Source: Chaetoderma sp. LZ-2023a (lineage: Eukaryota; Mollusca; Caudofoveata; Chaetodermatida; Chaetodermatidae). From it: a stretch of DNA of 64,000 bases. The stretch covers positions 85,383,129 to 85,447,128 of the forward strand of contig CM067369.1 in NCBI GenBank assembly GCA_034401795.1. The letters run 5' to 3'. Below are positions 38,161 through 60,015 of the stretch, piece by piece. The position numbers and the translations under genes were made by a program. The first letter of the stretch is position 1. Each line of letters starts with the position of its first letter. Below the pieces are notes generated by a model. The model searched no databases and was not told the DNA's origin. It saw nothing but the letters and a program-made list of their open reading frames with translations.

Positions 38161-38179
38161 GCAAATGTCATTAACTTAC

Positions 38180-38329
38180 CCATTTGTTTTGGATCGGAAG
38201 AGTCAAATATGTTAATCTCACATGGATAGCCCATAGTCTTATCCGTTGTATACATCATTAATCGACCACCGTACGACCAGCCACATGATCTCACAGCTGT
38301 GTGTGTCTCCAAAACTACCAACTGTTTAC
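38180..38329 (-). CDS. EIF3I: EIF3I exon (WD40 blade 3), first seen in this window
   Basis: Opens with GK completed across the splice (acceptor GTTTTAG), then QLVVLETHTAVRSCGWSYGG, RLMMYTTDKTMGYPCEIN and IFDSSDPKQM, and ends one base into the next codon. The donor is GTAAGT. It corresponds to about residue 83 onwards of the ~325-residue protein. The about 82 N-terminal residues (blades 1-2) have no match between here and position 64000, so their exons probably lie beyond the right edge. Confidence 0.95.
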
Positions 38330-38888
38330 CTAAAACAGAACAAGCAATGTCTTTATGAATCACAACTATATGATACCCGAAGAAAAAGATGTTATCCACA
38401 GTCTAGTACAGCAATGTCAGTCTCGATATGAACACAAGTTCACAATTTAATGGTCATGTCAGTCAACAAGAGGCCCAATAGTCTATTGGTTAAGTCGAAA
38501 ACTGACCAAAATTGTTCAAAATGTGAAACAAACATGAAAATTGGCTTACTTATAGATTTTTGTATGCTCTATCCAATAAGAGCAGGACACACATGATCAC
38601 ACATATTTTAGCCGCCATTTTGAATTTCATCATGGCTGCTTTCGAAACTTATTTATATAATACACTACCTTCTAGGACACATATATAGATGAATAAGGTG
38701 AATTTTTATGTTTTACTATCCAAAGCTGATGTGATTATTTACGAATACATAGCTTATTTCCTTATATCAATATTCTATATGGCACAAGCAAAAAGCAGGC
38801 TTTACAACGAAATTGTTATATTTTGAATTTCATTGGCGGGATCACATATTTCAATTGATCTGTGCACTCGTTGTGTATTAATACCACT
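38330..38888. other. EIF3I intron before the nested gene remnant
   Basis: Includes a scrap of repeat family C (AACAAGAGGCCCAATAGTC at 38465) and a GCCGCCATTTTG string near 38611. No frame recognised. Confidence 0.4.
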
Positions 38889-40419
38889 CTATCTATAGCA
38901 TGAGCCACCACCAGTGCAAAGTTCAGTGTATGAAAGGGAAGAATTAATGCATTTACAAGGGGGCTTACAAGCTTTTTTGCAGCCACATTTGATTAATTCT
39001 TTGCAAGACTTTGCAGCCTCAGGAAGGGCTGACCAGTAAGGTACTCAGTGTTCATTTGCATCCTTTGTCCATCCCCAATCACATGAGTTTGGTAACTGCT
39101 GTTGAGCTGCCTGTCCCCAACAGTGTCCTCCTTGATATGCCGATATTCTGATATGCTAAGTAAGCGCAGCCTTAGTTGGGGGTATGTGATCTAGCTGCCT
39201 TTTCTTGCTTGGTTTACCTGGTTGCAATCACTAGTTCTGTTATATGCTTCTGTGATTTCAGGAAATGATGTCCATGTGTCCCAAGCCATTTTCTTCCCAA
39301 TGCTGCTGAAGGAGGATGAGGTATCACAGTCACTGAAGGCATGGAAGAATGGCAATGCCCTAGCCTTCTGATCCCCAAGTGCGGTTGCAATGCTATGGGC
39401 TGGTATCACTTTAAAATTTTTCTTCACACCAAAAGCGATCCATAACTCATCAAGTGGCAAGGAATGAAATGTAGCAATAGCTAGAACAACCACATGTGTC
39501 GACTGTTCTGATCAGAACGGCGGTAGCCATGTTGTGCACAATGTAGTACATGTAACAGTATTCTTGTGTCCGCTTCCTCATGATTACATGGTGCAAGATT
39601 AATTGCATTGTCACACTCATGAGAATACAAAACTATTTTTTCGAATGTGCTATTAAGCTGTTTTCCTGGAGTAACCAGCTTGGCAACACATTTTGCTAAG
39701 AAATTGTTCAGCTCTTTCTTATTTTCATCAAAATGAAGGAACCTTTGCCAGTTCTTCGGCATCTGTGTGGATGCATTAACAACAATTCCGGTTCCTGAAC
39801 CTCTTTTTAGTCTGGTACATCCTTTCAAACTTTTGTCAATGTGCTGATCCCATACCACGTCCAGACGCTTTGAAGATTCAAGATTCCTCATTAGATATGG
39901 AATGAATACTTTCTCGGCACAGTCACTAAAAGTAGAACAGGATTTGGGGAGCAGCATATTGATGACAACAAACCCATCAAAAAATTTTGCATCAACTTCA
40001 GGGTTACTATCACTGGTAGTAGGGATCACTCGTTCAAAGCATGCAATAAGGTCTGACTTGGTGCATGTTCTCAGTTGTCACACATCTCATAAAGAAGGTG
40101 GAGCTGCTTGGTTCTCGTGCCTGAAAAATTCATCCATATCTCCATTTCTGGATTGGCACAATATAAACATTCTGGAGAACAATTCACAATTACTCTTTAG
40201 AGTGCTCATTTGATATCAAGTCTTTGATTGTCTTTTGGGAGATGTCTTCTGGAAAAGAGGCATGTAATTTTTTACGATGATGTCAGAAATGGGGTTTGAA
40301 CATTTGACCAGTCTTTCATCAACATACTTTTCATACTGTGACTGTCCTACTTGTTTGATGCTTTGAAGAGTGGATATCGACTTCTCTCCCATTACCTCTT
40401 TGGTGTGCAACACTCAAAT
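38889..40419 (-). pseudogene. Unknown-function gene, C-terminal third (acidic PIN/FEN-like pattern and Cys-rich tail)
   Basis: Third piece of a ~1480-codon gene read from 59033 leftward. It encodes MLLPKSCSTFSDCAEKVF and CNHEEADTRILLHVLHCA, then a segment in another phase with VVVLAIATFHSLPLDELWIA, then IPAHSIATALGDQKARALPF and FHAFSDCDTSSSF. The spaced acidic groups (EEAD, VDTxVVVLA, DCDT) recall the metal-binding aspartates of PIN/FEN nucleases. A Cys-rich tail (CKELIKCGCKKACKPPCKC) precedes the stop at 38889. I know this as a multi-copy family without a firm function. Frameshifted, and cut at 40419 by DIRS copy 2. Confidence 0.6.
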
Positions 40420-40429
40420 TGCAGGAAAT

Positions 40430-40640
40430 GTCAATTTCCCTTTCTCCGAGATCTAACAATACTCACCATTCTGTTACTTCTGATATACAGCTGGCCCTGA
40501 CAGCGGCTCTAGGATTATAGACTTAGAAAGCTTTACCGACTCCTTGGAACCGGGTACTCGGCTCCCAACTGCCGAGTACCCGTCTACCATAGAGCTCATA
40601 TTGTTTGCATAGCCACCAAACAAGAGAAATCCATGGCTTG
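40430..40640 (-). repeat. 3'-side inverted terminal repeat of DIRS copy 2
   Basis: Contains AGCGGCTCTAGGATTATAGA and CAACTGCCGAGTACCCGTCT, the reverse complement of the repeat at 47225-47368. Its outermost 40 bases pair with the ICR that follows. Confidence 0.85.
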
Positions 40641-40664
40641 CCTCCGTGGGGCTGGGAGGCTGGG

Positions 40665-40780
40665 TCCGTAACAGAATGGTGAGTATTGTTAGATCTCGGA
40701 GAAAGGGAAATTGACATTTCCTGCATTCTCCATCGATCGATACTCACCATTCTGTTACTTCTGATATACACCAGATTTGA
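40665..40780 (-). repeat. Internal complementary region of DIRS copy 2
   Basis: GTAACAGAATGGTGAGTATT followed by GTTAGATCTCGGAGAAAGGG mirrors 40420-40477. Then CTCCATCGATCGATACTCAC mirrors the other element end (52651-52692). The TGCA|TTCTCC junction marks the two outer ends. Confidence 0.85.
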
Positions 40781-41269
40781 TCAGTAACCTGGTGGGAAGG
40801 GGCAAGCCATCAATGCTACTTTTGCCCCTTGGAGAAAGATTTAGACTTAAACACTTGACTCACGGAGACCTAAAAGGACCGTCAAGTTAACGGAACCGAA
40901 TCACATTCGCATCACTGCCCCCCCACTTTTTTTCTCCTAAGAAAAGGGAGAGAACTCACGAACATGTGTCTCGCCTGAAACACAATTATGCCAAGAGGGT
41001 TAACTGCTCCTTGCATATCCACATGTATTAGCCTGGGAATGAGCATGAATATATATGATGAATGAACATGATATATAGACATAATACAAAAAACTCTCAC
41101 TATTGAATTACCTTATGACAACTGGACTTCAGACGTACCGCCTCCAACCATTCACTGGTCCGGCCATCAGTGACACAATCTGGTTGTCATCCTCACGCTC
41201 GACCATGCCTGCTTTAGGTTCTTTTCTTACCAAAGTGAAAAAAGGGTGAAGAGCAGTGTGGTCACTTAA

Positions 41270-42457
41270 CTATCGTCTCAAAACAGCTAAAGCGAGTGGA
41301 TTGGCTGAGTCTGACACATCCCTCATATAGTAATCCGTAAATGAGGACTCACAGTGCCATTGCGCAACGGCCTTGATGTCCTCTAACGGAACACCACTGT
41401 AAAAGGCGGTTGAGGCGGCTATTCCTCTAACATCGTGTGCCCTTACGCCTTGCACCTGGTGCCCAGTCGCCATCTCATGAGTAGTCTGATTGCATTCGAC
41501 TACCCAACGAGAGATAGTATCCATGGATGCGGCGCCATAAGGCCTTTTAAGGCAGATCCACAGATGTCTATCGTTCGACCGTAACGAGTCAGTCCGTTTC
41601 CTGTACTTAGTCAAAGCACGGACCGGGCACCAGACATTGGCATCACGATCAAACCTTGTTAACTTCGGTATTATGATCGGTTTGCCGGGATATCTCAAAG
41701 ATTGATTCTTTGACATAAACTCTGCTCTTGGCAGAAGACGCAGACCCTCTCCGGAGACAATAAATCGGTCCCTCTCTGCCGAAAGCGCATGGATCTCACT
41801 GCGCCTTCTAGCTGAGGAAGCTGCCAATAGAAAAACCGCCTTTAGAGTCAAATGCTTTAGACTAGCCGAACGCAACGGTTCGAAAGGGTGCTTGGCCAGT
41901 ACATTAAGCACTAAAGATAGACTCCAGGCTGGAATGACTACCGGTTGTCTCGGTCGGAGATTGCTCATTCCCTTCACCATCACATTTAACTGGGCCACCT
42001 CTGGACTATCCCTGTTGGCTAGACAGGGGATAACTGATGCCAAAGCTGACTTGTATCCAGCAATTGTGACAGGATCTAGTCCTGAAAAGAACAGCTCACA
42101 GAGAAAGTCTGCTATTTGCTGAATAGTGGATTGAAAGGTATCAATACCCTTTTCTTCACACCAGTCTGCAAATCTGTTAACCTTGTTGTTATATGACTTG
42201 AAGGGTGACCTCCTTCTCGCAGCCGCGATGAAATCAGCAGCTTGTCGAGAAAAGCCTTCCGACGTGGAACGTTGTTTGATAACATCCACGCAGTCAATTT
42301 GAACATTTCGGGACGCTCGTGTAGGAAGCGTCCCTTGGCCTGGGAGATTATGTTCGGAATCTCGGGCAACTGCACTGGGTTTACCACCAGCAGATCTAGC
42401 AGATCCGTGAACCACGCCCTGCTGGGCCAATACGGCGCTATTAGCAGGACCAGACAC
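41270..42457 (-). CDS. DIRS copy 2 ORF3: tyrosine recombinase
   Basis: 395 codons covering a full tyrosine recombinase: core-binding domain (WCEEKGIDTFQSTIQQIADF), box I SSARRRSEIHALSAE (catalytic Arg), box II GVRAHDVRGIAAS (HxxR), and a candidate nucleophile Tyr in FTDYYMRDVSDSA near the C-terminus. It overlaps ORF2 in a different phase. Such enzymes integrate the circular DIRS DNA by strand exchange, without making a target duplication. No obvious internal break in this gene. Confidence 0.9.
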   Translation of the reverse strand: MSGPANSAVLAQQGVVHGSARSAGGKPSAVARDSEHNLPGQGTLPTRASRNVQIDCVDVIKQRSTSEGFSRQAADFIAAARRRSPFKSYNNKVNRFADWCEEKGIDTFQSTIQQIADFLCELFFSGLDPVTIAGYKSALASVIPCLANRDSPEVAQLNVMVKGMSNLRPRQPVVIPAWSLSLVLNVLAKHPFEPLRSASLKHLTLKAVFLLAASSARRRSEIHALSAERDRFIVSGEGLRLLPRAEFMSKNQSLRYPGKPIIIPKLTRFDRDANVWCPVRALTKYRKRTDSLRSNDRHLWICLKRPYGAASMDTISRWVVECNQTTHEMATGHQVQGVRAHDVRGIAASTAFYSGVPLEDIKAVAQWHCESSFTDYYMRDVSDSANPLALAVLRR

Positions 42458-44445
42458 GGTTCCTCCCTGATCTTCACCAATACCTTCGGCAGAAGAATGG
42501 TGGGTGGGTACGCGTAAGCGTGCATCCCTCTCCAGCTTATTGCCAGAGCGTCTGTATCGACGGCATTTGGATCTGGAATCGGCGAGACATAAGTCATGAT
42601 TTGAGCATTTTCACTTGTGGCGAACAAGTCGACGTTGGGTTTGCCCCAATGCTCGAAGATCCTTCGTAGAACTGGAGGGTTGAGGGACCATTCTGTTGGC
42701 AGAATTCTTTGTCTGCGAGACAAAGCATCGGCCAGAATGTTCAATCGCCCAGGAATGTGAGCTGCTTTCAAAACAACCGAGTAATTCCTGCACCATTGAA
42801 TCAAGTGCCACACTTTGATACACAGTGTGGGTGACCTGGTCCCGCCTTGGCGATTTATGTATAATACTACCGTCGAATTGTCCGACCGTATCAATATCAC
42901 CTTGCCCCTGACCATCGGAAGAAACTCTTCCAACGCCAGTTCCACTGCCATCATTTCCAACAGATTGATATGAAGCTGGCTCTCCTGGAGAGTCCATGTG
43001 CCCGAGACCTGGTGTTCTCCCAGGCAGGCCCCCCACCCCTCCAGCGATGCATCCGTGTACACGGACAGCTGGGGGTGGGGTAGGTGCAGCGAAACCCCTA
43101 CTAGGAGATTCTGACGCTTTTCCCACCATACAAGATGCGACATTATCGGCTCCAAAACTGGTACCAGTTTTGACAGGGGTTCTGTTCTCTGTTTCCACAG
43201 AGACTTCAGATACAACTGGATAGGTCTTCGCATTAGAGCAGCGTACGGGATCACCTGCTCCATGGAGACCATCATGCTCAGCATCTGAAGAAACCACCTT
43301 GCCTGAATGTGGTTTCCCACTCGAAAACTCCTGAGGATGGCTAACAGAGACACCACTCTGGGCTCTGATGGGTAAACCCTGCCCTCCTCGAGATCGAATC
43401 GCATCCCCAAATAAACGAAATGTTGAGTGGGCGTCAACTCAGATTTCTCCTTGTTGACTATCCAGCCTAGATCTGAAAGTAACTTCAGAGTCAGAGCAGT
43501 ATCCACGTTCAACCTGGCTGCCGACTCTGCCTTGATCAGCCAGTCGTCTATGTAGGTGTGTAGCGCCACGTTCTCTTTTCTGAGAAACGCTGTCACCGCA
43601 AGGACCACTCTTGTGAAAACCCTTGGAGCTGTCGACAGGCCAAACGGGAGAACAATAAACTCCCATACTTGATTCTGAAACGCAAATCTCAGAAACCTGT
43701 GACAACTCCTGTTCATCGGAATGTGGAAATATGCATCTTTCAGATCGATCGATACACACCACATTCCCTTCCTCAATCCTGCCGTTACCGACCTCGGCGT
43801 TTCCATCTGGAACCGAGGCGTACGGATAAACCAATTTAATGGCCTGAGATTGAGTACGGGTCTCCATCCCCCTGTGCTCTTGGGGACAAGGAACATATTG
43901 GAATAGAAGCCTGGAGTGTTCTGGTTCGCTGGTTTTATTGCTCCCTTCAGAAGCAAACCCGACACCTCATTTTGAACAGCTTCTAACTTGTCTGGTTCCC
44001 GTGGTACGGGTGTCCAGACAGGTGCCAAAGACAGATTCTGCGGCGGAAAGTCCCACCACTCCGGCATGTACCCCTGGGATAACCATCCCAGGACCAGACT
44101 GTCTGACGTCACACCTCGCCAGGCCTCGACGAAACGCATGAGCCTTCCACCCACCATAGACGCCTCGACGTCTAACGGGGTTGTCCGGCTCGCGGTCCGC
44201 TCCCCCCCCCCCCTCTTTCTTAACGAGAGAGAACCATTTCCATCCTGGCTCGGCAGGTATAACTGGCACCGCTGTTCCTGTCGCACAGGTGCGGTCCAGG
44301 CGGATATGAAGGGAGCTTTCGTACCCTCAGGTACGATCCGCTCCCTTCTTTCCACCCTTGGAGGATTTACCCGTACCCTTCCCCTTGCCCTTCCCGCCTC
44401 TAGGGCGATCCGGAGCAACATTGGGGAGGGTAGGGGCCTCCACAA
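42112..44445 (-). CDS. DIRS copy 2 ORF2: reverse transcriptase - RNase H - methyltransferase-like
   Basis: 777 codons. RT boxes SIDLKDAYFHIPMN, LPFGLSTAPRVFT and YIDDWLI; RNase H strings VYTDASLEGWGACLG and SDNSTVVLYINRQGG; methyltransferase-like VDLFATSENAQIM and PCLVLLIAPYWPSRAWF. It looks open throughout. The frame is longer at its N-terminus than in copy 1 because it extends upstream through ORF1 spacer; the functional start is likely near the MVGGRLMRFVEAW string shared by both copies. By eye nearly all aligned residues agree with copy 1. Confidence 0.9.
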   Translation of the reverse strand: MWRPLPSPMLLRIALEAGRARGRVRVNPPRVERRERIVPEGTKAPFISAWTAPVRQEQRCQLYLPSQDGNGSLSLRKRGGGERTASRTTPLDVEASMVGGRLMRFVEAWRGVTSDSLVLGWLSQGYMPEWWDFPPQNLSLAPVWTPVPREPDKLEAVQNEVSGLLLKGAIKPANQNTPGFYSNMFLVPKSTGGWRPVLNLRPLNWFIRTPRFQMETPRSVTAGLRKGMWCVSIDLKDAYFHIPMNRSCHRFLRFAFQNQVWEFIVLPFGLSTAPRVFTRVVLAVTAFLRKENVALHTYIDDWLIKAESAARLNVDTALTLKLLSDLGWIVNKEKSELTPTQHFVYLGMRFDLEEGRVYPSEPRVVSLLAILRSFRVGNHIQARWFLQMLSMMVSMEQVIPYAALMRRPIQLYLKSLWKQRTEPLSKLVPVLEPIMSHLVWWEKRQNLLVGVSLHLPHPQLSVYTDASLEGWGACLGEHQVSGTWTLQESQLHINLLEMMAVELALEEFLPMVRGKVILIRSDNSTVVLYINRQGGTRSPTLCIKVWHLIQWCRNYSVVLKAAHIPGRLNILADALSRRQRILPTEWSLNPPVLRRIFEHWGKPNVDLFATSENAQIMTYVSPIPDPNAVDTDALAISWRGMHAYAYPPTILLPKVLVKIREEPCLVLLIAPYWPSRAWFTDLLDLLVVNPVQLPEIPNIISQAKGRFLHERPEMFKLTAWMLSNNVPRRKAFLDKLLISSRLREGGHPSSHITTRLTDLQTGVKKRVLIPFNPLFSK

Positions 44446-46327
44446 CCTTCCTGGCTTTCTTAGCCGGCGACGGCTGAGAAAATCCAGACGAAGCAGAAGT
44501 CCCAGCAGGCTTAGCTTTCGCCTTGCCTTTCTGCTTCTTCAAAGGTTGGCCAGCTAACGGCTTCCCTACAGCCCCTAGTGCGTGCGCTTGCCGCACTAGC
44601 TCCAGCTGTAGGTTTACCGCCAACCGATTCTGCGGAATGCTGGCAGTGTCCTCTAGGATGGCCCGTGCCTGGCCACCGAAGATGCTAGGCCCTGTCAGGG
44701 GTGTCCCAAGAAGACGCTCCCTGACTGCCGTAGCCGGACGCATATGGTCAAGAACCATTTGCCTCCTGGACTTTGTCACACGTGCTTGCACCCTTGCCAG
44801 TGCGTCCATAGACAGCACCAAGCCGTCATTGACGCACGAAAGCGCCACAGGTGGCACAGGGTGGCCTGCCCCTGTTTCAGCCCACACCGACTGAAGAGGG
44901 CGATACGAATGGTTGACAGCACTCATAGCTGCCCTCACACCCTCATCGCATAGGGACAGGACTTCCTCCTGGTGTACCTGGGACTTGTCCACAAGTGCCG
45001 GACCGGGGCCACCCGCTCCAGCACTCTGAACACCCAGAACCCATCGGTCATCCTCGGTGACCGACGGTACCACACCATGTGTCGTATTCCCCCCGCCGAA
45101 TACGACACCTCGCCCGCACCTCCCTGGAGGCCGCAGAGAGCTGGTCCTTGGTCGTGAGCTGCTTGCTATAAATAGCATCCAGCAACTCTATGAACCGTGG
45201 ATCCAGTCCAACCGACTGGATTCGGGCTGCGGGCAAGATCCCCGTCCGAATTGATGCAACTGACGGACGGGGCGCATCGTCCTCGGCCGTGGCCGAAACC
45301 ACAGATGGGTCAACCAGCCAAGCCAGGGCCTCCGACCAGTCTACTTCCGAGGAGGACACACCCGTGAACACGTCACCCGTTGACACGTTCATGGGCCTGC
45401 CAGCCACGGCCTCCCGGCAAGGAACCGTGGCTGACACGCAAGGCACTCCGGTCCCAAACGGTTCCGCCGCCACCCCATGAAACACACCAGTCCATGGGGT
45501 AGGTCCGCCCGGAAAACCGTGCGGACCCGTAGCAGACGCGGAACCGTGGCCAGACACGGGTGCCAATGGCACCCCTTGTCTGACCGCCGGACCAGGCGAG
45601 ATAGGTGAGTACCACGCCCGACCCGGCACACCGGTCACCGTATCGGCTGGCGTCAAACCAACCGTCACGGAACCGGTGCCTGGTACCAGATTGGCCTCAA
45701 CCACGGGCGGAGCCGCTGCCCTGGCTTGCGCCAAGCCAGACAAATGGAGGACGGTTCCGTCCAGGATGGAATCGACCTCCATATTCTCCACCCGTGGCAT
45801 CACAGGCCGCAGCAACCTCTCCTCCTCAGCCTCCTCGTCTTCAGACTCTGAAGTCGTCACTAGACGAGGAAACCTGACGGACTGGCCACCGCTACTGGAC
45901 CACCCGGAGGTGGCCGCACGAGAGGGCCCCCTCGGTAACCAGTCCAGAACCCTGTCCTAGGACAGGATCCGTACCAGGCATGGGGAGAAACTGACCCCCT
46001 AACCTTCGGCAGCAGGGACGACACCAGCGTGGGCAGAACGCTATGCAGAAAACCCTGCATAGCTGGACCGAACCACGCCGGCGGTGCCATCTCCGCCACC
46101 TCCAGCTGGGGACGTGGAGCGCCCCCACCGGCCGAACCGGACGCTCCACGATTTACCTTCGGACCGCCTGACCCCGCATCAGACCCAGCCACATCCTTCT
46201 GGGCAAGGAACTTTAACATCACTTCCGCGGACCACACTGCACACACACTACACCTACTATCAAGGCTACATGGCGTACACCTAAAAAGACATGGTCCATA
46301 AACAGGACCCGTACGAACTTGTGGCAC
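44327..46327 (-). pseudogene. DIRS copy 2 ORF1 (gag-like), broken
   Basis: Counterpart of 7306-9381. It begins with a Cys-rich module (CLFRCTPCSL, then CSVCAVW), has the acidic ESEDEEAEEE patch and low-complexity Gly/Pro/Val stretches, and ends with a lysine/glycine tail (GGKGKGKGTGKSSKGGKKG). It is a fossil copy with about two or three breaks and differs from copy 1 more than the polymerase does. Confidence 0.8.
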
Positions 46328-47224
46328 ACGTCACATGATGGCGGGGCTGGCGTGGCCTATAAATAAGTACAAACCTACAATAAGCAAGCGGAACGATACA
46401 CAGATGGAAGGCAGACAATTGATTTTCAAATCATTTGACCATAAATTAACTGTAACCCTCCCGTACCCCACCCCGCAATGTTACAGCAAAGATTGCATTG
46501 ACTATGACGACAAGAACGATGCGGGCATAAATGCACCCATAATTGATCCTCCAGGATGTATAAAGGAACCAGGAATCATATCGCATAGCATTCAGGGTAT
46601 ATTTACCAATCAATATAAATTATACTCTTAATGAAAGCCGAAACGATATGTGAAGAACAAACAAAATGTAAACAAACTGCTGTACCACACGGTAAAACCG
46701 CAGACCGCACATCTAATCAAGAATTTTGAAACCACCGATCATTGCAAATCGATCGTGATAACACGTAAACTTGAACATTCCAAAGTTTCCGGTACCATTT
46801 TCAGTACGCAGCACCCAGAACAAGATGCGTGAATTAATGAAAAATTTTCTTCACATAAACATCCGAGCCTCACGGGTGTGACGTCACCCGCTCGGATCCT
46901 ACGGAGAACGACGTCAGCCGATATTCGTGTTAGAAATACCGTAGCAAACACCTATTTTCACACCTGCCGATCGCCTGTTGTGGGTTTAAAGCAGCCGATC
47001 ATCCGGCATATCTCGTTGTTAACACACGTCCCAGATTCTTTGGGGTCAGAAATTGGAACATGCGACACAACGAAATTTAGAGACCTAAGTCTTTTAACTA
47101 TGGATAATAAGGAATTATACAACCTGTTATCATCGGCGGCATCCATATTATCCAATTATCCTTGTAAGAGAACCTAGCTACCACAATCACAGACAAAAGA
47201 CTTAGATATTAATCCTGAATCTCT

Positions 47225-47368
47225 CCACTGCGAATCCAGCATGTACGCTCTTGTTGCTATGCAAACAAGAATGAGCTCTATGGTAGACGGGTACTCGGCA
47301 GTTGGGAACCGAGTACCCGGTTCCAAGGAGTCGGTAAAGCTTTCTAAGTCTATAGTCCTAGAGCCAGC
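47225..47368 (-). repeat. 5'-side inverted terminal repeat of DIRS copy 2, inner part
   Basis: GAGCTCTATGGTAGACGGGT, CTCGGCAGTTGGGAACCGAG and CGGTAAAGCTTTCTAAGTCT match the reverse complement of 40500-40620. It stops in GAGCCAGCTG, where the DNA transposon starts. Confidence 0.85.
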
Positions 47369-47370
47369 TG

Positions 47371-48262
47371 GGTCATTCCGTATAAGATGGACCAATGCCC
47401 GTCAACTCATAGTCACGGATTTCCTTCAAACTTTCTCAGTGTGAGCATATGGATGTTTTAGTTGAGCATGACAATTTTTTAACTGATATGTGAAATACTT
47501 TTTGAAAAATGCCCTCTCAAAGACCCCTATGCTAAATTTGACAAAAGTTTCAAGTACAAATCCAATGTTTGAGACATCATATCTCATCCAATATACTGTT
47601 TACAATACTAGATCTTTTCATTCTAATGCTCTGGTCAGCATACTTGAGGAAAATAACAAGCAATATGTGTTGACTTGTTTTGGGTGTGTTTTAGGGGTCA
47701 CCAAAAACGTTAAAAACAGCTAATTTTCCTGTTTCAACAAAATTTGGTGATACAGTAAAATGTATATTATAGTTGCTGTAACTAAATGATTTCTACCCAG
47801 TTCACTAGAGCTAATATTAGCTTAGTAATATTTACTGACTAACAGCAAGGTTTGCTCATCAAAAAATTTTGGGGGCCCAATGCACCACCCCTGTTCACAA
47901 AAGAGGGCCAACTTCATCGCCTATTAAGTCAAAATAACCCCTTTCAATTTTTATTTTATTTTGGTGAATGGTAGATATATGGTCAATAGTTACATGGTTA
48001 AAAGTTGCACTCTTACATTTGTTCCCTTTTGGAGCTATGGCATATTAGAAATGTGATATTTTTGTAAAACTTGTACGATATTCCATTTTTGGGGGTTAAT
48101 AATTAAAAAATTATAGGGCCTAGAGGCATGAAACAAGCGATACAACCAGTTCTCCTGCTATATTAGAAGAACCAATCAGCATTCCCTGGTTATATAATAC
48201 ATAAACATCGATTTTCTAGACCCAAAGACCTGACTCTGTTAAAATTTGACATTTTTCGCGAC
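47371..48262 (+). repeat. Left inverted arm of the DNA transposon
   Basis: Markers GGATTTCCTTCAAACTTTCT, TTGACTTGTTTTGGGTGTG, GCACCACCCCTGTTCAC, AATAACCCCTTTCAATTT and CTGTTAAAATTTGACATTTT all recur in reverse complement and reverse order at 52630-51733. Identity looks moderate, with small indels. Confidence 0.8.
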
Positions 48263-48614
48263 AATCTAATTTGTTTTAAAAAGTTTAAAATATCTCCACT
48301 TTAGCATTTTAGATACTTTTTCATCATAGGTGGACATTGAATGGTATATTATGGTCATATTAGTACAGCTACATGGACTTCTATGGCCTTTTATAGACAA
48401 TTTTGACACACTGCGACCAGGCCAATATGTGTAATCTCTCATACTAAAGTATGCCTAAATGTCACCCATTTCATGGAATTATTTAATAAACTGAGACAGG
48501 CATTGGTTAATACACATGATATAATATAAGTGTTAAGAGATAGTACGTAATACTACATACCTCAGCAATAATTGATGATACGGTACATGATCCAGCATAT
48601 ACCGCTCCTCCAAA

Positions 48615-51160
48615 TTATTTAAATAGTCCATTTATAAAGTCGATATCAGTTTGTGGAAAAGTGTACTGCCGGCCAGTTGCTGTCAATGGTGTTGACACCT
48701 TACTTAGAATGTCACAAAAAGGAACCCAGCACTGGTCTGTGCGCCTTGGCCAACTAAAGGATCGAGCTGGTCCATGCGGCTTCATAAACGAAATGAGACA
48801 GTCCTCATTTTCTACACTAATTTCTAACACTATGCCAAACCACCAATTTTTGTCATACAATGCACCAACATAGTCACTCAAAGACAGTTCCATAGGGATA
48901 TTTAAATTCTGAATCTCTGATGACATACCAGGTTGTGTGTTAGAAAATGACCGAGTGTATGAAACATCATCAGTTGAAATTCGCTTTACTGTGATAGAGT
49001 TAGTGTCATTTGGAACAAACGAATGGAATGACCTGGTTCCTTGCACTGTTTTGGCAAGGAGATACCGCTCTTCCAACATTGTATAATGGCCCTGGATCTC
49101 ATCTTTACTAACTAAGAAGAACTTGATCTTGCTTATGTTCTGTTGGCTGAATTCATACAATTCACTAGCATTTCGTATAAGCGCTGTTTGCAGACTAGCC
49201 CTTGCGGCTAAGCGCTTCACTGTGCCACCGATACCGTCGCAAACACCTTTACCATGGCTGGTAGCAAACAAATGCCATTCTGCCTTAATATCAAAATCTG
49301 AATAATGATGGCAGACATTAATAAAGTTTTTTGAAGTTCTTGTATTGTCCTGCACACCCATCACTAAAGTATTTAATTATATGAATATTGGGATACTTTT
49401 CCTTCAAATATCTTGTAAAAATCTCCTGAAAACAGTACACAGTATTTGTTTCGTGTTTCAGACACTCAGAGATGAAGCATACATTTTCTTCATTCAACTT
49501 TCCATAAGCCTTAACATAAAATGCCAAAGGATGTATCGTGACTTGAGAATTGTTCCAATAAAATCCCTGTACACAATCTTGCACAATAATGCTGTAATTT
49601 TCAGCAAAGTCGAGAACAACAATGGCAGTAGTGTCATCTAAATCATGTTTGCACGCTTTCGAGAATTCACTTTGAGATTTCGCTATGAAGGAATGTGGTG
49701 TTAATTCTTGGATCCGTTGACATAATATAGAAATAAAATCTTCAACTGATACTTCTCGGCGCATGATTTCAATTCGGTCTGTGGATACCCATTCATTGAA
49801 TTTAATGATGTCATCCTCATCCATGTGCTCGTAAAGGTCTTGCTCTAAGTAAGTTTTGAGAAATGCAGTTCCTGGACACTTTTCACATCGTTGCAGCATG
49901 CAATTTCTAGAACTACTGTCACATACAGATTTGTCAGTTAGGTTATGATAGTCTTCAGAGATAACATCCACCATAAACTTTACATTTTGGAGTTTTTCGC
50001 ATACACAAACATTGTGGCTGCCGCTAGAAGAAACAGTTACACACCATTTGGGTCTTAACTCAACAAATTTAGAGAAACCAATTTTAAGTCCAGTTTCTGT
50101 TTTGAAATTAGCATGTACTTCCTTCAAATTTGTCAGGATTAGCCGTTTTTGCTTATGTTCTTTGGTACCACAAATTCTTATAGTAACAAAATCATTTTTC
50201 CCGGGTAATAGTCTAGACACAGTATCATCTTGGTAGTAGTTAATAACACTAGTGTATGCTGATCAAGCTTATTTCTTTTAAAGGTTTCACGATCAGCGAG
50301 TATTCCATCATTCTGCGCAAGTTGTCTGGCTTGTTTCACCATATAACGCGTAACACCACATGCCTGAAAAACCTGAACAGTTTTATCTATCGACCATGAT
50401 TTAGGTGTAATAGTCAATACTTGTATCTTTTGATTTCGTGATGACACAGACAGTTTTTCATTCATGTTCGATACCAAGTAGTCCACATCTAACTTAGAAT
50501 CACATGTACATTCAGTTTGTGAAGTGTCAGCAACTAATTTATTAGGTGGAAAACCTAGGTGGGATGCCACGTGACTTGTTGTTGCTTCTGCCATTTGTTT
50601 GATTTTTCGTTTACCATATGATACTTTCCTTTCTGAATGGACACTCTTTAGGGGAGAAACTCCAACTGCTGAGAAACTAGAGTTGAGGCATTCAGCATTA
50701 CTGTACAAAGTATCTGCTATGGCCATTGATTCCGGTTCACTGTCACTACAATCTGTCAGGTTATTAATTTTCTGCAAACAATGATCTGGCAAATCTTTTG
50801 GCCAGGTTGTTTTCTCTCTCTAGTTTTCGACTGTATTAATGCCACAATTTCTTGATCTATATTAACTAGTCCCTTTTTAATAAGCTTTTTGTGAACTTTT
50901 AGGGGATCACAACATGAAGTGTTCTGCTTCATCATCGGGAATATATGCAGATAGTTTTTCTTGTGGCAACAGCACACTGTTTCTAAACTATCCTCACTCT
51001 GGCCGCTTCTCATTGCAACAAGTGTTTTATCTGTAGCCATCAATTGTACATCATTTACAGAGCATTTATCCGTAAACTTATGACATTTATCATTAGTGAG
51101 ACGTCCAACTGAACAAAATGTCTCTGGTAATTCAGCCATTGTGCAACGTGTCCTAGTCAA
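48615..51160 (-). CDS. Transposase-like protein of the DNA transposon (DDE/RNase H-fold type; frame shifted)
   Basis: About 830 codons in four overlapping frames (51160-50756, 50792-50178, 50220-49318, 49364-48615) whose ends continue one another; frame changes lie near 50790, 50215 and 49322. The N-terminus has paired Cys (CCCHKKNYLH, SCCDPLKVH). The middle has RPKWCVTVSSSGSHNVCVC and CMLQRCEKCPGT, which are zinc-like. The core has VVLDFAENYSIIVQD (first Asp), then IKYFSDGCAGQYKN (second Asp) and WHLFATSHGKGVCDGIGGTV, the arrangement of an RNase H-fold transposase. A C-terminal segment, YVGALYDKNWWFGIVLEIS, resembles a small Tudor/SH3-like domain. The family is common in invertebrate genomes; the superfamily is unassigned here. 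Confidence 0.65.
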
Positions 51161-51732
51161 AGTTTACACTTTTCAAATTAAAAGGTCTAATTTATCATTA
51201 AAATGTATAGTGAATTATTAAATTTCTAAAGTAAATATCTAAACATTTGTGTATCAGCAACAATGTCAATGTTTCAAAGCAGTAATTATTAAACACTTTC
51301 ACTGGTCATGCTGCCTAATCTTGATCACTTAAAATGCTTGACTGAACTCTTGTTGATAGCAATACTTGCATGCAGATCTCTGAGAAAAACTGAGACCATG
51401 TGACTAATCAATATCACCTCACTACCTATGTCTATTACAGCAATTGACCTAATTATATACAAAGCTCTGAAGGTTGAGTTATTTTCTCTAGATATGAAAT
51501 CTGTCAGTCTTTATTAACACTGGATAACTCAAGACTGAGTGATGAGCTGTTGCAGCTCGACCAGCTTACAGGACAAACTCTGTACCTGGTGTATATTTTG
51601 AAAATGATTTGACTGAAAATTATTGATGGCTAAGTCAGCAACAACTTATAGTCAAATTGTTTTTTAAATATTCTCCAGGCAATATGTTATTCTCATTGAA
51701 AATGTTGTTGAATAATGACTTGTAGTTTACCC
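51161..51732. other. Upstream region of the transposase inside the DNA transposon
   Basis: AT-rich, between the transposase start and the right arm. Around 51595-51680 it holds a foldback family-A core (TATATTTTGAAAATGATTTG / TAGTCAAATTGTTTTTTAAA), itself a secondary insertion. A promoter would be expected here; no clear TATA seen. Confidence 0.45.
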
Positions 51733-52630
51733 ACAAAAATGTCAAATTTTAACAAAGTAAGGTTTTGACATCTCTAAAATCCATGTTTATCTATTTTGTA
51801 AAAGGGAAATGCTGGTTGTTTCTTTTAATAAGGCAGGGAAACGCGCTACATCTCTTGTTTCATACTTCTAGAGTGTATACTTTTAAAATTATTAACCCCC
51901 CAAAATCGAATATCATACAAGTTTTTGAAAAAATATCAGATTTTGTATTTGCCATAGCTCTAAAAGGAAACAAATGTAAGAGTGAACCTTTTGGCCCTGT
52001 AACCATTGACCATATATATAACATTCACTAAAATATTTAAAAAATTGAAAGGGGTTATTTTGAAAAAACATGTTATGAAGTCACCCCATTTTGGTGAACA
52101 GGGGTGGGGGTATGGCTCCCACAAAATTTTTGCGGAGCATATCTTGCCATTAGGTAATAAATATCACCAAAGTAGCAGTAGCTCTAGTTAACAGGATAGA
52201 AATCATTTGTGTAAACCAAATACAAATACATTTTACGGCATCACCAAATTTGGATTAAAATATGAAAAATCACATTTTTTGGCATTTTTGACGACCCCTA
52301 ATACATGCCTAAAACAGGTCAGCACAAAATGCTTGTGATTTTCTCGAACTATGGTGACCAGACTGTTAAAATAAAAACACCTAGTATTGTGAGCACTGTA
52401 GTCGGTGAGATATGAAGCCTCAAACATAGAAATTTTGTTACAAATTTTTGTCAATTTTAGGCAGGGGGTATTGGATAGGCCAGTTTTCAAAAAGTATTTG
52501 ACCGTTCACTATAATACTTGGAATTTCCTGTTAATACATACATATGCTTACTCTGACAAAGTTTGAAGGAAATCTGAAACTATGACTTGACGGATTTCAA
52601 AAATTTTGGTCCTTCTTACATGGAATGACC
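51733..52630 (-). repeat. Right inverted arm of the DNA transposon
   Basis: Reverse-complement partner of 47371-48262. Includes CACCCCATTTTGGTGAACAG, ATTGAAAGGGGTTATTTTG and ends TCTTACATGGAATGACC. Confidence 0.8.
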
Positions 52631-52692
52631 CAGCTGTCAGGGCCAGCTGTATATCAGAAGTAACAGAATGGTGAGTATTGATCGATGGAGAA
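52631..52692 (-). mobile_element. Outermost 5' end of DIRS copy 2, cut off by the DNA transposon
   Basis: CAGGGCCAGCTGTATATCAG, then AAGTAACAGAATGGTGAGTA and TTGATCGATGGAGAA. This is the same end sequence as 6197-6240 of copy 1 reversed, and the complement of one half of the ICR at 40740-40780. Confidence 0.9.
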
Positions 52693-53605
52693 CTTTGCTG
52701 TCCTCACTGAAGGGGTTACCACATTCTTCGACCTTAGCAACCACAGCCTTGACATGTTCTACAAACTGAGACTGAATTGAGACACTCTGATCATTGTGTT
52801 GTGTTATTATCTTGGTAGGCAACTGAAATGAATTTTCAAACTCATGAACAATTCTAGCCACTTCTGGACCAGCTGTGATCCATCTTATCAAGGCAGATGG
52901 ATTATTTGTTATTCCTATTATGCCACCATAACCTTTGATCTTCTCATTCATCTGTTCATGGGCTTGGTCTAAAGACATAGCAGAAAAGATATGTGCCGTT
53001 TTCTGTACGGCAAAATGTCCTCTTATGAACTCTGCATGAACTGATGTTGCTTGTTGCTGTAGCTGAACCATATATTTTATGTGAATTGGCAGCCATCTGG
53101 CATAATTTGTGTGGCTCAAAGAGAACATCCATGGTCCTATCTTCCCAAGGCACTGAACATAGACTAAAATTGCGCTCATGCACTGAGCGAATAAACTGCA
53201 TAGCGAGTAGTTCAAGTTCCAAAACCATAGCCCAGTATTGGAATTGTGGAATCTCCTTAGTATTCAAACTATACCATGTGCTGAAATCAATGGCTTAGCC
53301 AGGACAAGAGACTTCGCATTAGTATCATATGGAGAGAGTTGCAACAAATGTAAGGCTGCTGCTGTTACCTGATGAACATATCATAATCTAGTTACATGGG
53401 ACCCTTTCAGCATTGCGTCAGCTCGACCTGAGGTGGTGACATCTGATTCTACAACAATAGTTGTCCATCCACTGCCACTTAGGAAGTCAGCAAGGAGTTT
53501 CATCAAATTCATTTGTATGTACAGACCACCCATTATCACTACAAATTTGTTCTCACCAAAGATATCTGGCCATGTCCATTTGATCTTCTTGGCAATGGAA
53601 AAAAA
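52693..53605 (-). pseudogene. Unknown-function gene, middle third
   Basis: Second piece, between the two DIRS insertions. It encodes KIKWTWPDIFGENKFVVIMG and GLYIQMNLMKLLADFLSGSG near 53590-53470, then WTTIVVESDVTTSGRADAML. After a frame change come FAQCMSAILVYVQCL, THIKYM-like and YARWLPIHIKYMVQL, VHAEFIRGHFAVQKTAHIFS, and AMSLDQAHEQMNEKIKGYGG to NPFSEDSK at 52693. No motif of known function in this part. The frame is broken by a few indels or stops. It joins 57035 on the right side of the DIRS insertion and 40419 on the left. Confidence 0.6.
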
Positions 53606-53997
53606 CCCACAGACCCCCCCTTGCGGGTTGGTCTGTTGTTTTATTAACCACTATAAAAACATACTTACCGTTCAATCACTACTTGCTAAATCAACTAATC
53701 TGTATTTAGGCACCAGAATAAGATTTTTCTGCTTGCTTACTTTCCTCCCCATGCCTATTCCTATTAATTTATATACCCTCAACTAGGCTACTGGTTGAGT
53801 ACACTTCCAGTATATAACCTGATATAGACTGGCACCAGTCTGTACTCACTCCCTGGTGACGCCTGTCACTATGCATGCCTGCGCATTGGAGCCCAAATAG
53901 GAAACAGATTCACTTTTCTAAATTTAAGTGCCAAATATTACAGGCAGATTCTCAAATCATTCCCACGTGGGGTGGTTGAGGCCGGGTCGTAGTGACA

Positions 53998-54120
53998 GAA
54001 TGCTAAGTATGTTTTTATAGTGGTTAATAAAACACCAGACCAACCCGCAAGGGGGGTCTGTGGGGGTGGGGGGTGTTGTTATTACACCACAAAAACATCC
54101 ATTACCGTTCAATCACTACT
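53998..54120 (-). repeat. Internal complementary region of DIRS element 3
   Basis: TAAGTATGTTTTTATAGTGG, TTAATAAAACACCAGACCAA and CCGCAAGGGGGGTCTGTGGG are the complement of 53606-53667. GTTGTTATTACACCACAAAA and ACATCCATTACCG are the complement of 56998-57034. Both outer ends are thus represented side by side. Confidence 0.8.
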
Positions 54121-54479
54121 TGCTAAAACCCATAGATTTGGTCAGTGCCTCACTTAAACCATTGGTGGGTGGAGATTTGAGAATCTAAAAACAAGGATAA
54201 AAATTAAACAAATCATATCCAAATGTTAATAACATAACATAAAAGTGCACTTTAATCAATCACTCTGATTATCAAACAAGGAAAACTTTAAACATAATGA
54301 AATAAACAAAATCAAATAAAATCTCACCATTTCTCACAGACGCAGTCTTAACGAAAACGGCGGGATGTGTGCTTGGTAAATGGTCTTCGGCAAATTTAGT
54401 TAAAATCGTGATATTACAAAAAAAAAGGAGGCCACTGCACTCTGATCCTTTAAATAAAATGAGGTCAAAGTGGACTCAG

Positions 54480-55570
54480 ATTTCCAGCCTGTGACCTGCA
54501 TAACTTAATCTAAAGAAGAGCCCGTGAAAAGAGCAAAGGAGGTAGCCATTCCCCTAACATCGTCAGCTTTTATATGAGAAAGATTAACCTGTTCAGGAGA
54601 AGCAATCTCGTAACAAAGTTTGAAGGTCTCACAAATCCATCTGGCAATCGTAGCCTTAGAGACTGGTCTGACTACCTCCTCTGCATAAGGGACCCATAAA
54701 TGGGACGGGTCAGACCTTTTAAAATCGGTTCATTGCTTGTAAACTTTTAATGCCCTGACAGAACACCAATATTTGTCAGGTGAGAAAGAAGATAACGATT
54801 TTAAAATGATCAGTTTAGCAGGGAAGCGGTTAGACTACATTTTCGATAAAAAAATCCCTTCTAGGATATAAGACTAAACCGTCCCCAGATACGATAAATC
54901 TGTCCTTTTCAGCGGAAAGAGCATGAATTTCGGAAAGTCTTCTACCAGAAGCAGAAGCAACAAGAAAAACGGCCTTAAGAGTTAAAGGTTTAATACTAAT
55001 AGAAGCCAGAGGTTCAAAATGGCGGCCTGCCAACACCTGACGAACCAAGGCCAAATTCCAGGAAGGCAAAGGCTTAGCAATTGGAGGACAAATATTACCC
55101 AATCCTCTGATAAAACCATTAAGAATCTTCATATCCTTGACGCCAGCGTTCAAAAGACAAGGAAGAGAAGATGCCAAAGAAAATATATAACCCCTGACTG
55201 TGTTAGCAGATAACTGTAACGAATCAGAGATAGGATAAAAAATCTAACACATGGGGAATAGAAACAGAATCGGGCACAAGATCATGAACTGAACACCATT
55301 CTCCAAAAATTTTAAGACGACCCTTGTATACTCTACGGGTCGACTCCCTCCTGGCAGTCAATAATCTCCTGAGATCTTGAAGAAACTTTGACCTCAGAGA
55401 CTTGATGCTTGAAATCCTCCAAACGCACAGACTGAAGATTTCTGGGTTTGGATGCCGACACGTTCCCCTTACCTGAGAAAGATCTGGGGAGGCTGGAAGA
55501 AGATGAGGGAAGTCTACCAGGAGATCGAGAAGATCCACAAACCAGATCCATTTTGGCCAAAAGGGAGCTA
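54480..55570 (-). pseudogene. DIRS element 3 tyrosine-recombinase remnant
   Basis: Recombinase-like strings VYKGRLKIFGEWCSVHDLVP (core-binding) and SASGRRLSEIHALSAEKDRF (box I with catalytic Arg) are clear. They correspond to the same boxes in copies 1 and 2. Fossil: broken, several breaks. Confidence 0.75.
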
Positions 55571-55926
55571 TCAGAAGAATTTTGCAGAACTAGTCCCTGC
55601 CCATCTTCAACACAAAAGGAATCAGGATCGTTGGAAGGAAGGCGTAAGCCAACATTCCTGTCCAGGACTGAGACAGGGTGTCCACCACCAATGCATGACT
55701 GTCCGGAAAAGGAGACATGAAAGAGGCGATCTGGGCATTTAGACAAGTCCGAATCTCGTCTGGACATGAGAGAAATAGGCTTCCCCCATTTGTGGACACA
55801 TACGCTAACCTTCTGGTCATCGTCCGATTCGGAAGAAATATCCATTGCCGGTCGGATGGCCGACGATATGGGCTCATCTAATGATTTCGTCAAGACGGTC
55901 GCAAAAGACTCGAACCTAGCGAAGTG

Positions 55927-56231
55927 CTAACACGGCAACAGAATTAACCGAAGAGGACCCCCACCCCCCATTGCTGGAGGTTTAGAAACAGAAGTTTTAG
56001 CAAAAGACACAGTTTTTGTCTTTGAAGCAATGGGGGGGGGGGGGGGGCGCTCAGTTGACAGCACAGACGAAAAATCTTTGAAATAGGCCTTCGATACGGA
56101 CAAAGACCAACCCTTGCAAACCCCGCACATCGTTGTGGGAGTACACGTAGTGCACTTAAGACAGACATGGCCTCCAAACCCCGCAGAGTGAACACACTCG
56201 CACTTGGAGGATGTACACTTGCCTTTTTCAA
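55927..56231 (-). pseudogene. DIRS element 3 gag-like N-terminal remnant
   Basis: Encodes a Cys-rich module (HVCLKCTTC followed by CGVCKGW) like that at the start of ORF1 in copies 1 and 2, then a Lys/Ser/Pro-rich stretch. A poly-G tract at 56032-56047 crosses it. Fossil remnant. Confidence 0.6.
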
Positions 56232-57034
56232 CCGATTTTACAGTCTCCTAAAAACGAAAATAAAAGTTGAAAATGAAGCGCACAGCTTCGAAAGAGCTTA
56301 AGAGAACTTTGTTACAATAGAGTCCGATATAAAGCAAAAACGCATGCTATAGAAAAGGCGGGAAACTTCAAATTCAAATATCAAAATCCCTAAAGACAAG
56401 AACAAACTTTCTAAGGGATTAAAACAATTTCCTACTCATACACTAAACTGTAATAAGTGACTTAAAGGCTCCTGGAGCAGAGGGATTTTAAATGATGATG
56501 ATATCTCAGGCATATTAAGGGTACCCACGAAAATGAGACACGTCACGAAAATCGGTAACATTTTTGTACAGAGTATAAAAACCAATAAAAACCACGAAAT
56601 ACTCCATAAACATAACTTAGGGAGGATAGACTTTATATTAGGCATCCTTATAATGATGAACTTCTAGAAACAGTAAGCTGACCCAGCGCAAAGCTATAAA
56701 AAAACTCAGCTGGAATATTTTGCAGTTTTCTGCTTGCAAAATAATTGAAAAGTGAATCTGTTTCCTATTTGGGCTCCAATGCGGATGCGCAGGCGTGCAT
56801 AATGACAGGCGTCACCAGAGACTGAGTCCAGACTGGTGCCAGTCTATATCAGGTTATATACTGGAGGTGTACTCAACCAGTAGCCTGGTTGAGGGTATAG
56901 ATATTAATAGGAATAGGCATGGGGAGGAAAGTAAGCAAGGATAAAAATCTTATTCTAGTGGCTAAATGCAGATTAGTTGATTTAGCAATTAGTGATTGAA
57001 TTGTAATGGATGTTTTTGTGGTGTAATAACAACA

Positions 57035-59033
57035 ATGGTTGATCCATAGTTATCACAGGAATTTGACGCAGGTGTAAATTTTGAGTAGCTTTGTCCACAA
57101 GCTTAATTGTGTGTAGTATCATTGCTACTGTGTTTGCTGGCTCTACAAATAGAGGCATAAGTGCAATTTGTGAGACAGCGCCAATGTTATCTGGCTGCCT
57201 CTTAGCATGGTATACTGTCCATGACACAAGGTCTCCATGGTTCAATGTCTCGTTTTAAAGTAAGTTTTCAGTCATGAAATCCAACCAGCCATATTCCTCG
57301 TCTTTAGATTGGCTAATACAGTAGTCTGTGCTGTAACGTGTCCCTCTGTTACAGGTGCAATAAGATCTTTTGTTGATAGTTCCACTGGAAACACTTCTGA
57401 ATATTCAGCTGGTAGTGGAGATAATGTTTTCTGGTGGCTAACATTTGAATCTATCATTATTCGGTCTTGTTCAGTTCCTGGATTTTCATGAAATGGGAAC
57501 CGACTCAGGGATATAGCGGTTCCATGAAATGAGTCCATAGCATTCCTTGCAGATGGATTATGGTCGATATTATCGATTGCTCCAACAGTGAAGACATCCT
57601 TTTTCAGAGTAGAGGGACAGACACAACCATCTCTTTTAAAATGTGAACAGACACTATTTGCAAGGGTTGTAGAAATTTCCTTTGTTCTATCATATGACAT
57701 ACATAAGCCATGGCTTGACAACTTATCAATTAGCTCTCTTTGTCTTGGTTTGGCATGAATAACCAGTCCAGTGTATATAGCAAGCGGTGTCTCTCAAGGC
57801 TTAGCATGACATATTGTTTGCTGGGCATTTTCTTGGTATTAAACACTAACAACTGTGAGAGTGCTAATGTTACCTTTGTTACAGCATCTGGTGACCCCTT
57901 TTGCTCTTGAATGCTTGTGCCTCACAAAATCATTCTCACAAGAGCGAGAACACTTTCCAGGACAGCTTCAACTCACATCCCTTTTCGAAGTTACCATTAA
58001 AGGAAGTCCTGTTGTAGGATTTCTTGCCTCAATATTTGCGCAGCGCGTACCAAGTGAATTGTGGCATCATAGAATTATATGAACACACGATTTTGATGGC
58101 TTCACAAATGTCTGCATTAAACATCATAATGACATCTCGCCCTTGAGGTTGAGCTCTCAAATCTAGTATTAGACATAGCAATCTTTCTTTCAGTCTAGTA
58201 CTGTTCACTTTCTCTGAAAAACAAGGATCTATTTCACTCAGTTGTGTTTCATATAGTTTTACTAAATCAGTTTAAAAATTGGAAGTGTTTTGTCCTGCCG
58301 GAATTCTTCTATTTATGAAACTAATAAATGCCAATACTAGACTATCAGTCTTCATATTTACGTCAGTATTGGTGCTTCCTCTCTGCTGCTGTCTGACACG
58401 ATTGTGCAGAGAGTTCAGGCAACTGAGATGGTATCTTGCATTTAAAGCAGGCATATCCCCTTCTGAAAGCTTGCCTAGGTTTCTGTCCTGTAATATGTAG
58501 GCATAGTCTCGAACACGGTGATCAAGTGCTAATGTCAATGCACTGCGAAGGTGTTCATTAGTGCCATATTCATCACAGAAGAGACAATTTTCTATCCTTT
58601 TCATCGAACTTGCTACAGAAGTATGTCTGGTTTTAACTGGACTTTGTTCGGGTTCTTCATCTTCTTTGGCTTTTCTTTTCTGAGCACACAGCTTTTGCTT
58701 ATCAATTTTATTTCGACAGCTTTTATGCCATCGTAATTTGTTTGTCTCAAGAGTTGTCTCAATACCTTCACCAGTGTCCATTCTGGAAATATCTATTTTC
58801 ATGGGTAAGCAATTGAGATTGTGGAACTGATACAGGTTTTCAGCAATACATTTATAGCCACAGTCCTTATCACTCCCCTTATATATACATAGTCCAGGAT
58901 CAACTAATCTCTCATCTGTTTCTGTCTTGCAGAGAACACAAAGCTACCAGTCTGTTACATTTGATGAGTCCAGACTTTCTAAACACTGAGAGGTACTTTC
59001 ACTAGGATCTACAATCTTACACGTTTTAGACAT
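57035..59033 (-). pseudogene. Unknown-function gene, N-terminal portion (zinc-finger-like start)
   Basis: First piece of the ~1480-codon gene. The start is ATG at 59033 (MSKTCKIVDPSESTSQC). Then Cys/His-rich parts follow: LCVLCKTETDERL, WHKSCRNKIDKQKL, NCLFCDEYGTNEHLRSAL and YHLSCLNSLHNRVRQQQRG, suggesting treble-clef-like zinc modules. Later FHGTAISLSRFPFHENPG and ENVPVELSTKDLIAP-like text lead to HGDLVSWTVYHAKRQPDNIG and PVITMDQPL at the edge of DIRS element 3. Stops and frame changes occur, including one early. Such intronless multi-copy genes are common in invertebrates; whether the family is host or mobile is unsettled. Confidence 0.6.
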
Positions 59034-59575
59034 TGTGTATGCTGACAAAGACTCACAAACTATCATACACTACAAAGCATAAGACTGTTAAATATGGCTA
59101 GGGCAGGTGCTGACGATGTGCAGTGCAAGGGGCGAATTATTTGAAAATGGCAATGAGTTGATTGTCTTGTAGAGTATAATTAGTAGTTGTTGCGCTAAAT
59201 CTGCAATATATCTTAGATACATATTTATTTAGACGTTTAAAGACTCTTGAATCAATTATCTGTGTATAATTGAAGCCTAGAAATTTTCGTTTCCAATTTT
59301 CAAATTCAAATTTACTTCAAATGAGACTTTATGATATTACCCCGGGCACTTTATTACAAGATTGCAAGATGATGGCTCCTGATGGGCCTAATCGTGTATT
59401 TTCTGCTTTTATATGAGAGTATACCTAAACCTTATTACATGCCAAATTTGGTAATTGTTTCACAATTTGAACGATTTTTACGTAATCTACTAGACTACAA
59501 AGGCCTTGAGGCTCAGCTGCCTAAGAGCAATGCTCTATAGACCATAAGACCAATGGCATAGATCTGCCACGAGAG
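59034..59575. other. Spacer upstream of the unknown gene
   Basis: AT-rich; would hold the promoter of the gene remnant at 59033. No motif I can defend. The last bases run into the PLE RT fragment. Confidence 0.35.
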
Positions 59576-60015
59576 AAATTAAGTTTGACATGTGTTACAA
59601 TGGATGTCACATAATACACAGATTCTCAAGACTGAGGGAAAATGTGCCATGGCCAAATTTGTCAGCAAATTTGGCCTCCCCCGGGGAGGTCAACCAGACC
59701 ACTCTCCTGCGATTACTACACATATTCACATGGAATAACTTTACCTTTAATGATAAACACTACCTCCAAGTTGGTGGGACAGCCATGGGCAAGAAAGTGA
59801 TTCCCAGCTATGCCATAATCTTCATGGCACAATTAGAGGAATATCTACTACAAGGTTGCACGAGAAAACCATATTTATACCGCAGATATATTGATGACAT
59901 CTTCATCATCTGGTCACAAGGACAGGAATCGTTAAATGAGTTCATCACCTATATGAACTCGCAGACATGCCAACCCCTGTACAAGCAGTTAGTAAAAAAC
60001 CATGATTTTCAGTAG
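59576..60015 (+). mobile_element. Penelope-like element RT fragment
   Basis: Plus-strand frame with FTWNNFTFNDKHYLQVGGTA, AMGKKVIPSYAIIFMAQLEE and the catalytic box YRRYIDDIFIIWSQ, then FITYMNS. These are the PLE RT palm boxes (GTAMG...SYA.IFM..E and Y.DD.F..W). Truncated on both sides; no endonuclease part. Probably the same lineage as 16736-18720. A TTCAGTAGTT(T) repeat follows at 60010-60078. Confidence 0.75.

Follow-up and report, generated by a model that had tools for sequence, protein, structure and literature searches.

We analysed a 64,000-nucleotide stretch of DNA from the mollusc Chaetoderma sp. LZ-2023a (C11:85383129-85447128, hereafter the window; the genome comprises 2.44 Gb in 2753 contigs), in which an intron of EIF3I holds a nest of transposable elements. 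Read on the minus strand, the outermost member is a DNA transposon that looks Academ-like and whose coding sequence lies in three pieces, separated by a short DIRS-type retrotransposon and by a longer one (DIRS copy 2), the latter carrying an inner DNA transposon in its left terminal repeat. A first-pass annotation of the window had taken the three pieces for the remnant of one gene, which it placed at 59033-38889. We find that successive, independent transposon insertions in a single 28.8-kb intron explain the nest, a reading to which we give a probability of about 0.87. The features are as follows, with residue numbers referring to L029, a relative of the outer element that lies elsewhere in the genome.

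38476..59500, minus strand: the whole nest, including 3-bp target duplications (TTG in the minus-strand reading, at 59498-59500 and 38476-38478)
57036..59497, minus strand: Academ-like transposon, piece 1, with the 5' inverted end TAGTCTAGTAGATTA at 59497 and an ATG at 59033; residues 2-673
53606..57035, minus strand: short DIRS-type element, inverted terminal repeats 53637-53918 and 56747-57034
52693..53605, minus strand: Academ-like transposon, piece 2; residues 674-982
40420..52692, minus strand: DIRS copy 2, with gag-like frames, reverse transcriptase (RT)/RNase H (42112-44538), a putative recombinase frame (41270-42610) and terminal repeats
47370..52631, minus strand: inner DNA transposon, 5,262 bp, ends GGGTCATTCC...GGAATGACCC, in the left terminal repeat of DIRS copy 2
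47366-47369 and 52632-52635: 4-bp duplication AGCT of the inner transposon, its two copies 5.3 kb apart
51735..52631: right arm of the inner transposon's long inverted end
48615-51163: presumed transposase of the inner transposon, in overlapping and apparently frameshifted frames
47370..48256, no strand assigned: left arm of the same inverted end (the 'foldback' of the first-pass annotation), ~75% like the right arm
38479..40419, minus strand: Academ-like transposon, piece 3, with the motif HEEADTR and a slightly decayed 3' inverted end; residues 988-1488
38181..38329, minus strand: EIF3I exon beside the nest (KQLVVLETH...DPKQM), with its AG splice acceptor (38331-38330) ~145 bp away from the transposon

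That everything lies in one EIF3I intron, as had been proposed, is borne out by exons on both sides, checked beyond the window. The exon that starts at 38329 matches the Pfam EIF3I model with an E value of 9.4e-9, below the whole-protein cut-off. The next upstream exon lies 3.1 kb outside the window (L066 3152-3089, that is, 64000 plus those numbers in window coordinates) and is followed further out by the exon for EIF3I residues 2-61. Donor and acceptor join in frame (CAAACAG/GTAAACAG, the slash marking the junction), the splice sites having been assigned by visual inspection. The flanking exons thus set the intron at 67088-38330, ~28.8 kb, of which the nest makes up 21.0 kb.

What had looked like a broken 'gene' is an ancient, defunct copy of a widespread, multi-copy DNA transposon. 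A DNA search with the last 301 bp of piece 1 gave 97 candidates, of which the best 40, window included, were scored; the 39 other places are 89-93% identical to the window. At the protein level, one part of the element returned 154 matches, including the window's own, over many contigs and many of them with long open frames. L029 has an open frame of 1492 codons, with which the three window pieces are collinear, with gaps, at 32-49% identity; the earlier view that the pieces belong to one coding sequence is therefore upheld, with coordinates correct to within a few bases. The extent given for the remnant holds for these pieces and fails for the limits of the unit, which runs from 59497 to 38479 on the minus strand and measures ~5.3 kb without its inserts. 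The window copy is decayed, with frameshifts and stops, and lacks 78 bp at 39244 that are present in the four copies compared.

Its boundaries are those of a transposon. With as many as 4 mismatches tolerated, terminal inverted repeats (TAGTCTAGTAGRTTAAGT and its inverse) are found at both ends of the two-ended copies, the window's repeat being decayed at the 3' end. With ends located by script, the 3-bp flanks are identical in seven of nine two-ended copies, and the window copy itself is flanked by TTG on both sides, 21 kb apart. When L012, whose pair (length 6791) involves another end, is left out and the window is counted in, exact 3-bp duplications occur in 8/9 copies, against 0.25 expected with randomly paired flanks. 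A TA duplication, also considered, was dropped because both flanks show 3 bp. Many copies, inverted ends and flanking 3-bp duplications mark the unit as a transposon, so that no host gene has been broken here, and the description as a gene remnant falls.

Related sequences include places with a common 813-codon open frame, ~45% identical to the element's C-terminal piece (for example, C13:53982418, C12:76245238 and C1212:22241). The nearly identical scores of these frames suggest a much younger, possibly active family related to the outer element.

Both breaks in the coding sequence are insertions into the outer element. The first-pass annotation had called for uninterrupted copies to be sought in the assembly; we fetched 10 kb around each of 20 copies, aligned the window to all of them and ran 150-bp probes flanking each break on the fetched stretches. 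Break 1 (57035/53605) is closed in all 20, although in L022 a deletion begins there and the closure rests on a short remnant; as the break lies in a T-rich run, its exact point is uncertain by ~5 bases. At break 2 (52693/40419), nine of the 20 copies miss at least one flank and 11 keep the two; in 10 of these 11 the site is closed, give or take 2 bases, and in the remaining one (L012) there is a 47-bp deletion. On visual inspection the empty site reads AAAG/ATTTG, an exact insertion point with no bases duplicated. These closed sites, together with the DIRS structure of what fills the gaps, confirm that the gaps correspond to the short DIRS-type element and DIRS copy 2.

In DIRS copy 2, inverted terminal repeats are accompanied by an internal region (40668-40770) complementary to both outer ends, and the insertion shows no target duplication. 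Pfam recognizes its reverse transcriptase (RVT_1, E 4.9e-21) and, at the cut-off, its RNase H (RT_RNaseH, E 2.5e-5). In the recombinase frame only the N-terminal SAM-like domain is matched, weakly and below the cut-off (E 0.006); the same domain reaches E 1e-4, above the cut-off, in DIRS copy 1, which is 89-94% like copy 2. The short element likewise has an internal complementary region (53989-54127), which matches its outer ends at 53606-53682 and 56981-57034. Its frames, compared with those of DIRS copy 2, gave matches (at most 54% identical) for a gag-like beginning (E 0.008), for the last part of the RNase H frame and for the recombinase frame; the RT core and most of gag are missing. Because only these parts are retained, we regard it as a deletion derivative and not as an autonomous member, presumably mobilised in trans by another element's enzymes, unless it decayed after insertion. 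Forty matching places were scored for it, the other 39 at 90-95% identity.

The terminal repeat of DIRS copy 2 continues across the inner transposon, and the proposed 5.26-kb DNA transposon in that repeat is confirmed at 47370-52631, with AGCT on both sides. It is a high-copy element: a first look at one end gave 907 candidates, and the 39 other places scored are all 99% identical over 300 bp; seven further loci share 1.8 kb of the element at 95.9-98.8% identity. End pairs were sought for 16 copies; for six of them (L042, L044, L045, L047, L055 and L061) the stretch retrieved did not contain the far end. Among the ten other two-ended copies, eight have an exact 4-bp duplication (9/11 with the window), where 0.1 would be expected. 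A 2-bp duplication was dropped, as ends set at GGGTC give 4 bp. The three transposon frames searched against Pfam gave no match above the cut-off, the only hit being DUF7692 at E 0.18.

A foldback core inside the inner transposon had been counted as a fourth layer, which we rule out: the two ~890-bp arms, ~75% alike within the window copy, extend inwards from the termini of the transposon and are found again in further copies. The right arm is present in 7/7 other loci, its similarity to the left arm of the window copy being 73-76%, and the left arm is represented by its outer part in 3/3 alignable far ends. The foldback is thus the element's own pair of inverted ends, so that the nest has three layers and not four, and the divergence between the arms does not date an insertion. 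Read inwards, each arm has an open stretch of 78-90 codons, the two being alike (47487-47720, plus strand; 52236-52505, minus strand).

The nesting gives the order of outer element, DIRS copy 2 and inner transposon, and to this extent the order of events can be read directly, as had been claimed. The claim does not extend to the two DIRS insertions, which lie side by side and which nesting alone does not order. Their terminal repeats differ in divergence, with a Kimura two-parameter (K2P) distance of 0.075 for the short element (280 sites) versus 0.026 for DIRS copy 2 (154 sites, a value that depends on manual trimming of the repeats), which suggests that the short element inserted before DIRS copy 2. 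From sequence identity among copies, the outer element looks older (89-93% alike) and the inner transposon recent (96-99% alike). The history probably began with an Academ-like cut-and-paste transposon that inserted ~145 bp upstream of the EIF3I exon and duplicated TTG. A DIRS-type retrotransposon without an RT core would then have entered its coding region, followed by a full-length DIRS elsewhere in that element, whose insertion duplicated no target bases, in keeping with integration by a tyrosine recombinase. Finally, a recent DNA transposon of high copy number, its inverted ends ~890 bp long, entered the left terminal repeat of DIRS copy 2, duplicating AGCT.

Two other explanations of the arrangement as a whole can be weighed against this history. 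If transposons had disrupted a genuine host gene, this could account for a long coding frame that no Pfam family matches; we reject this reading as next to impossible, as the unit has 39 other scored DNA places and 154 protein matches over many contigs, is bounded by inverted ends and 3-bp duplications, and sits within the intron of another gene. An assembly artefact that joined repeats from different places is scarcely less improbable. All parts are high-copy repeats, and the junctions are known from the assembly alone; random misjoins, however, would not be expected to yield base-exact closed sites, a TTG matching over 21 kb and an AGCT over 5.3 kb, or EIF3I exons in order on both sides. That dependence on the assembly counts against successive insertion, as do some details of the copies. 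Once the inner transposon and one AGCT are taken out, there is one base more than in the other terminal repeat of DIRS copy 2, which we read as an indel; the exact duplication is absent in 2/11 copies of the inner transposon; and the L018 copy of the outer element is flanked by GCA and TCA. The protein of the outer element adds to this list. Pfam searches gave nothing for four window pieces and otherwise chance-level hits (best E 0.086 and E 0.07), and solved structures (PDB) nothing in one search and otherwise chance-level hits (E 1.1 and E 0.76). In a FEN1 profile comparison, its C-terminal region scored 16.6, with the peak at the expected motif, whereas 60 shuffles had a mean of 13.7 and a maximum of 18.5, and the EIF3I control scored 11.0.

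These searches bear above all on the name of the outer element. Its C-terminal pattern HEEAD...TVDTD...GCDT...GKK resembles the XPG/FEN1 motif order, and as the nuclease was not confirmed by Pfam, PDB or the FEN1 comparison, we use only the term 'Academ-like'. The element could belong to another, possibly undescribed, superfamily with 3-bp duplications, an option favoured by the lack of any library or profile match for a nuclease or transposase and by a comparison with Academ made by description only. We consider this unlikely given the motif pattern and the agreement of published Academ in duplication length and size. In the literature, Academ has a target duplication of 3 bp (PMC5199201), AcademX duplications are 3 or 4 bp and those of AcademH 9 or 10 bp (PMC10045372), and bivalve Academ elements, which have expanded, have a mean length of 5565 bp (PMC10294476). 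The duplication length, the size and the 1492-codon open relative fit an AcademX-type element. More doubtful still is a bolder proposal, that the outer element and the inner transposon (4-bp duplications, GGGTCATTCC ends, two ~890-bp arms that are only ~75% alike but stay paired wherever both ends of a copy were read, and a Pfam-unmatched presumed transposase) might both represent undescribed lineages, the asymmetric arms of the latter having separate roles.

Large animal genomes commonly contain transposons nested in one another. Explained by successive insertions, the nest is genuine and clear-cut, yet of a sort usual in animal genomes rich in transposons, and no new kind of system is shown. 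The locus is a tidy stack that offers a useful example for annotating this genome, together with a warning, as the long 'unknown gene' without a Pfam match is here a transposon.

Further retroelement-like sequences lie outside the nest. Adjoining it on the plus strand is a reverse-transcriptase fragment with YRRYIDDIFIIW (59548-60015; RVT_1 E 0.0017, below the cut-off) that looks Penelope-like. On the other side, the EIF3I exon continues in frame into an RNase H-like stretch (37854-38402, minus strand; Pfam RNase_H 1.1e-6), which indicates a retroelement fragment just downstream of the exon. Two plus-strand frames, 18191-18676 and 34970-35530, have no Pfam match at 0.01 and cysteine-rich ends resembling Penelope GIY-YIG tails.

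Compared with known systems, the outer element shares with AcademX its 3-bp duplications, a size of ~5.3 kb, inverted ends and a single long protein, and differs in that profile search detected no nuclease in it; the likeness is to published descriptions and not to an aligned protein. For the inner transposon we assign no superfamily, with Sola presumably among the candidates. Its three searched frames have no Pfam match above the cut-off; it has in common with cut-and-paste DNA transposons that make 4-bp duplications and have long inverted ends the 4-bp duplication, the inverted ends and a presumed transposase gene. Its 5.26 kb is near the mean length of Sola1 (5445 bp in PMC10294476); Kolobok was discarded, as TTAA duplications are expected for it (PMC9587614) and none are seen here. 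Both retrotransposons resemble the DIRS1 type in their inverted terminal repeats, an internal complementary region beside one of the repeats, a putative recombinase frame and no clear target duplication, to which DIRS copy 2 adds the RT/RNase H. They depart from it in that the RT core and most of gag are gone from the short element, and in that foreign DNA interrupts the left repeat of DIRS copy 2.

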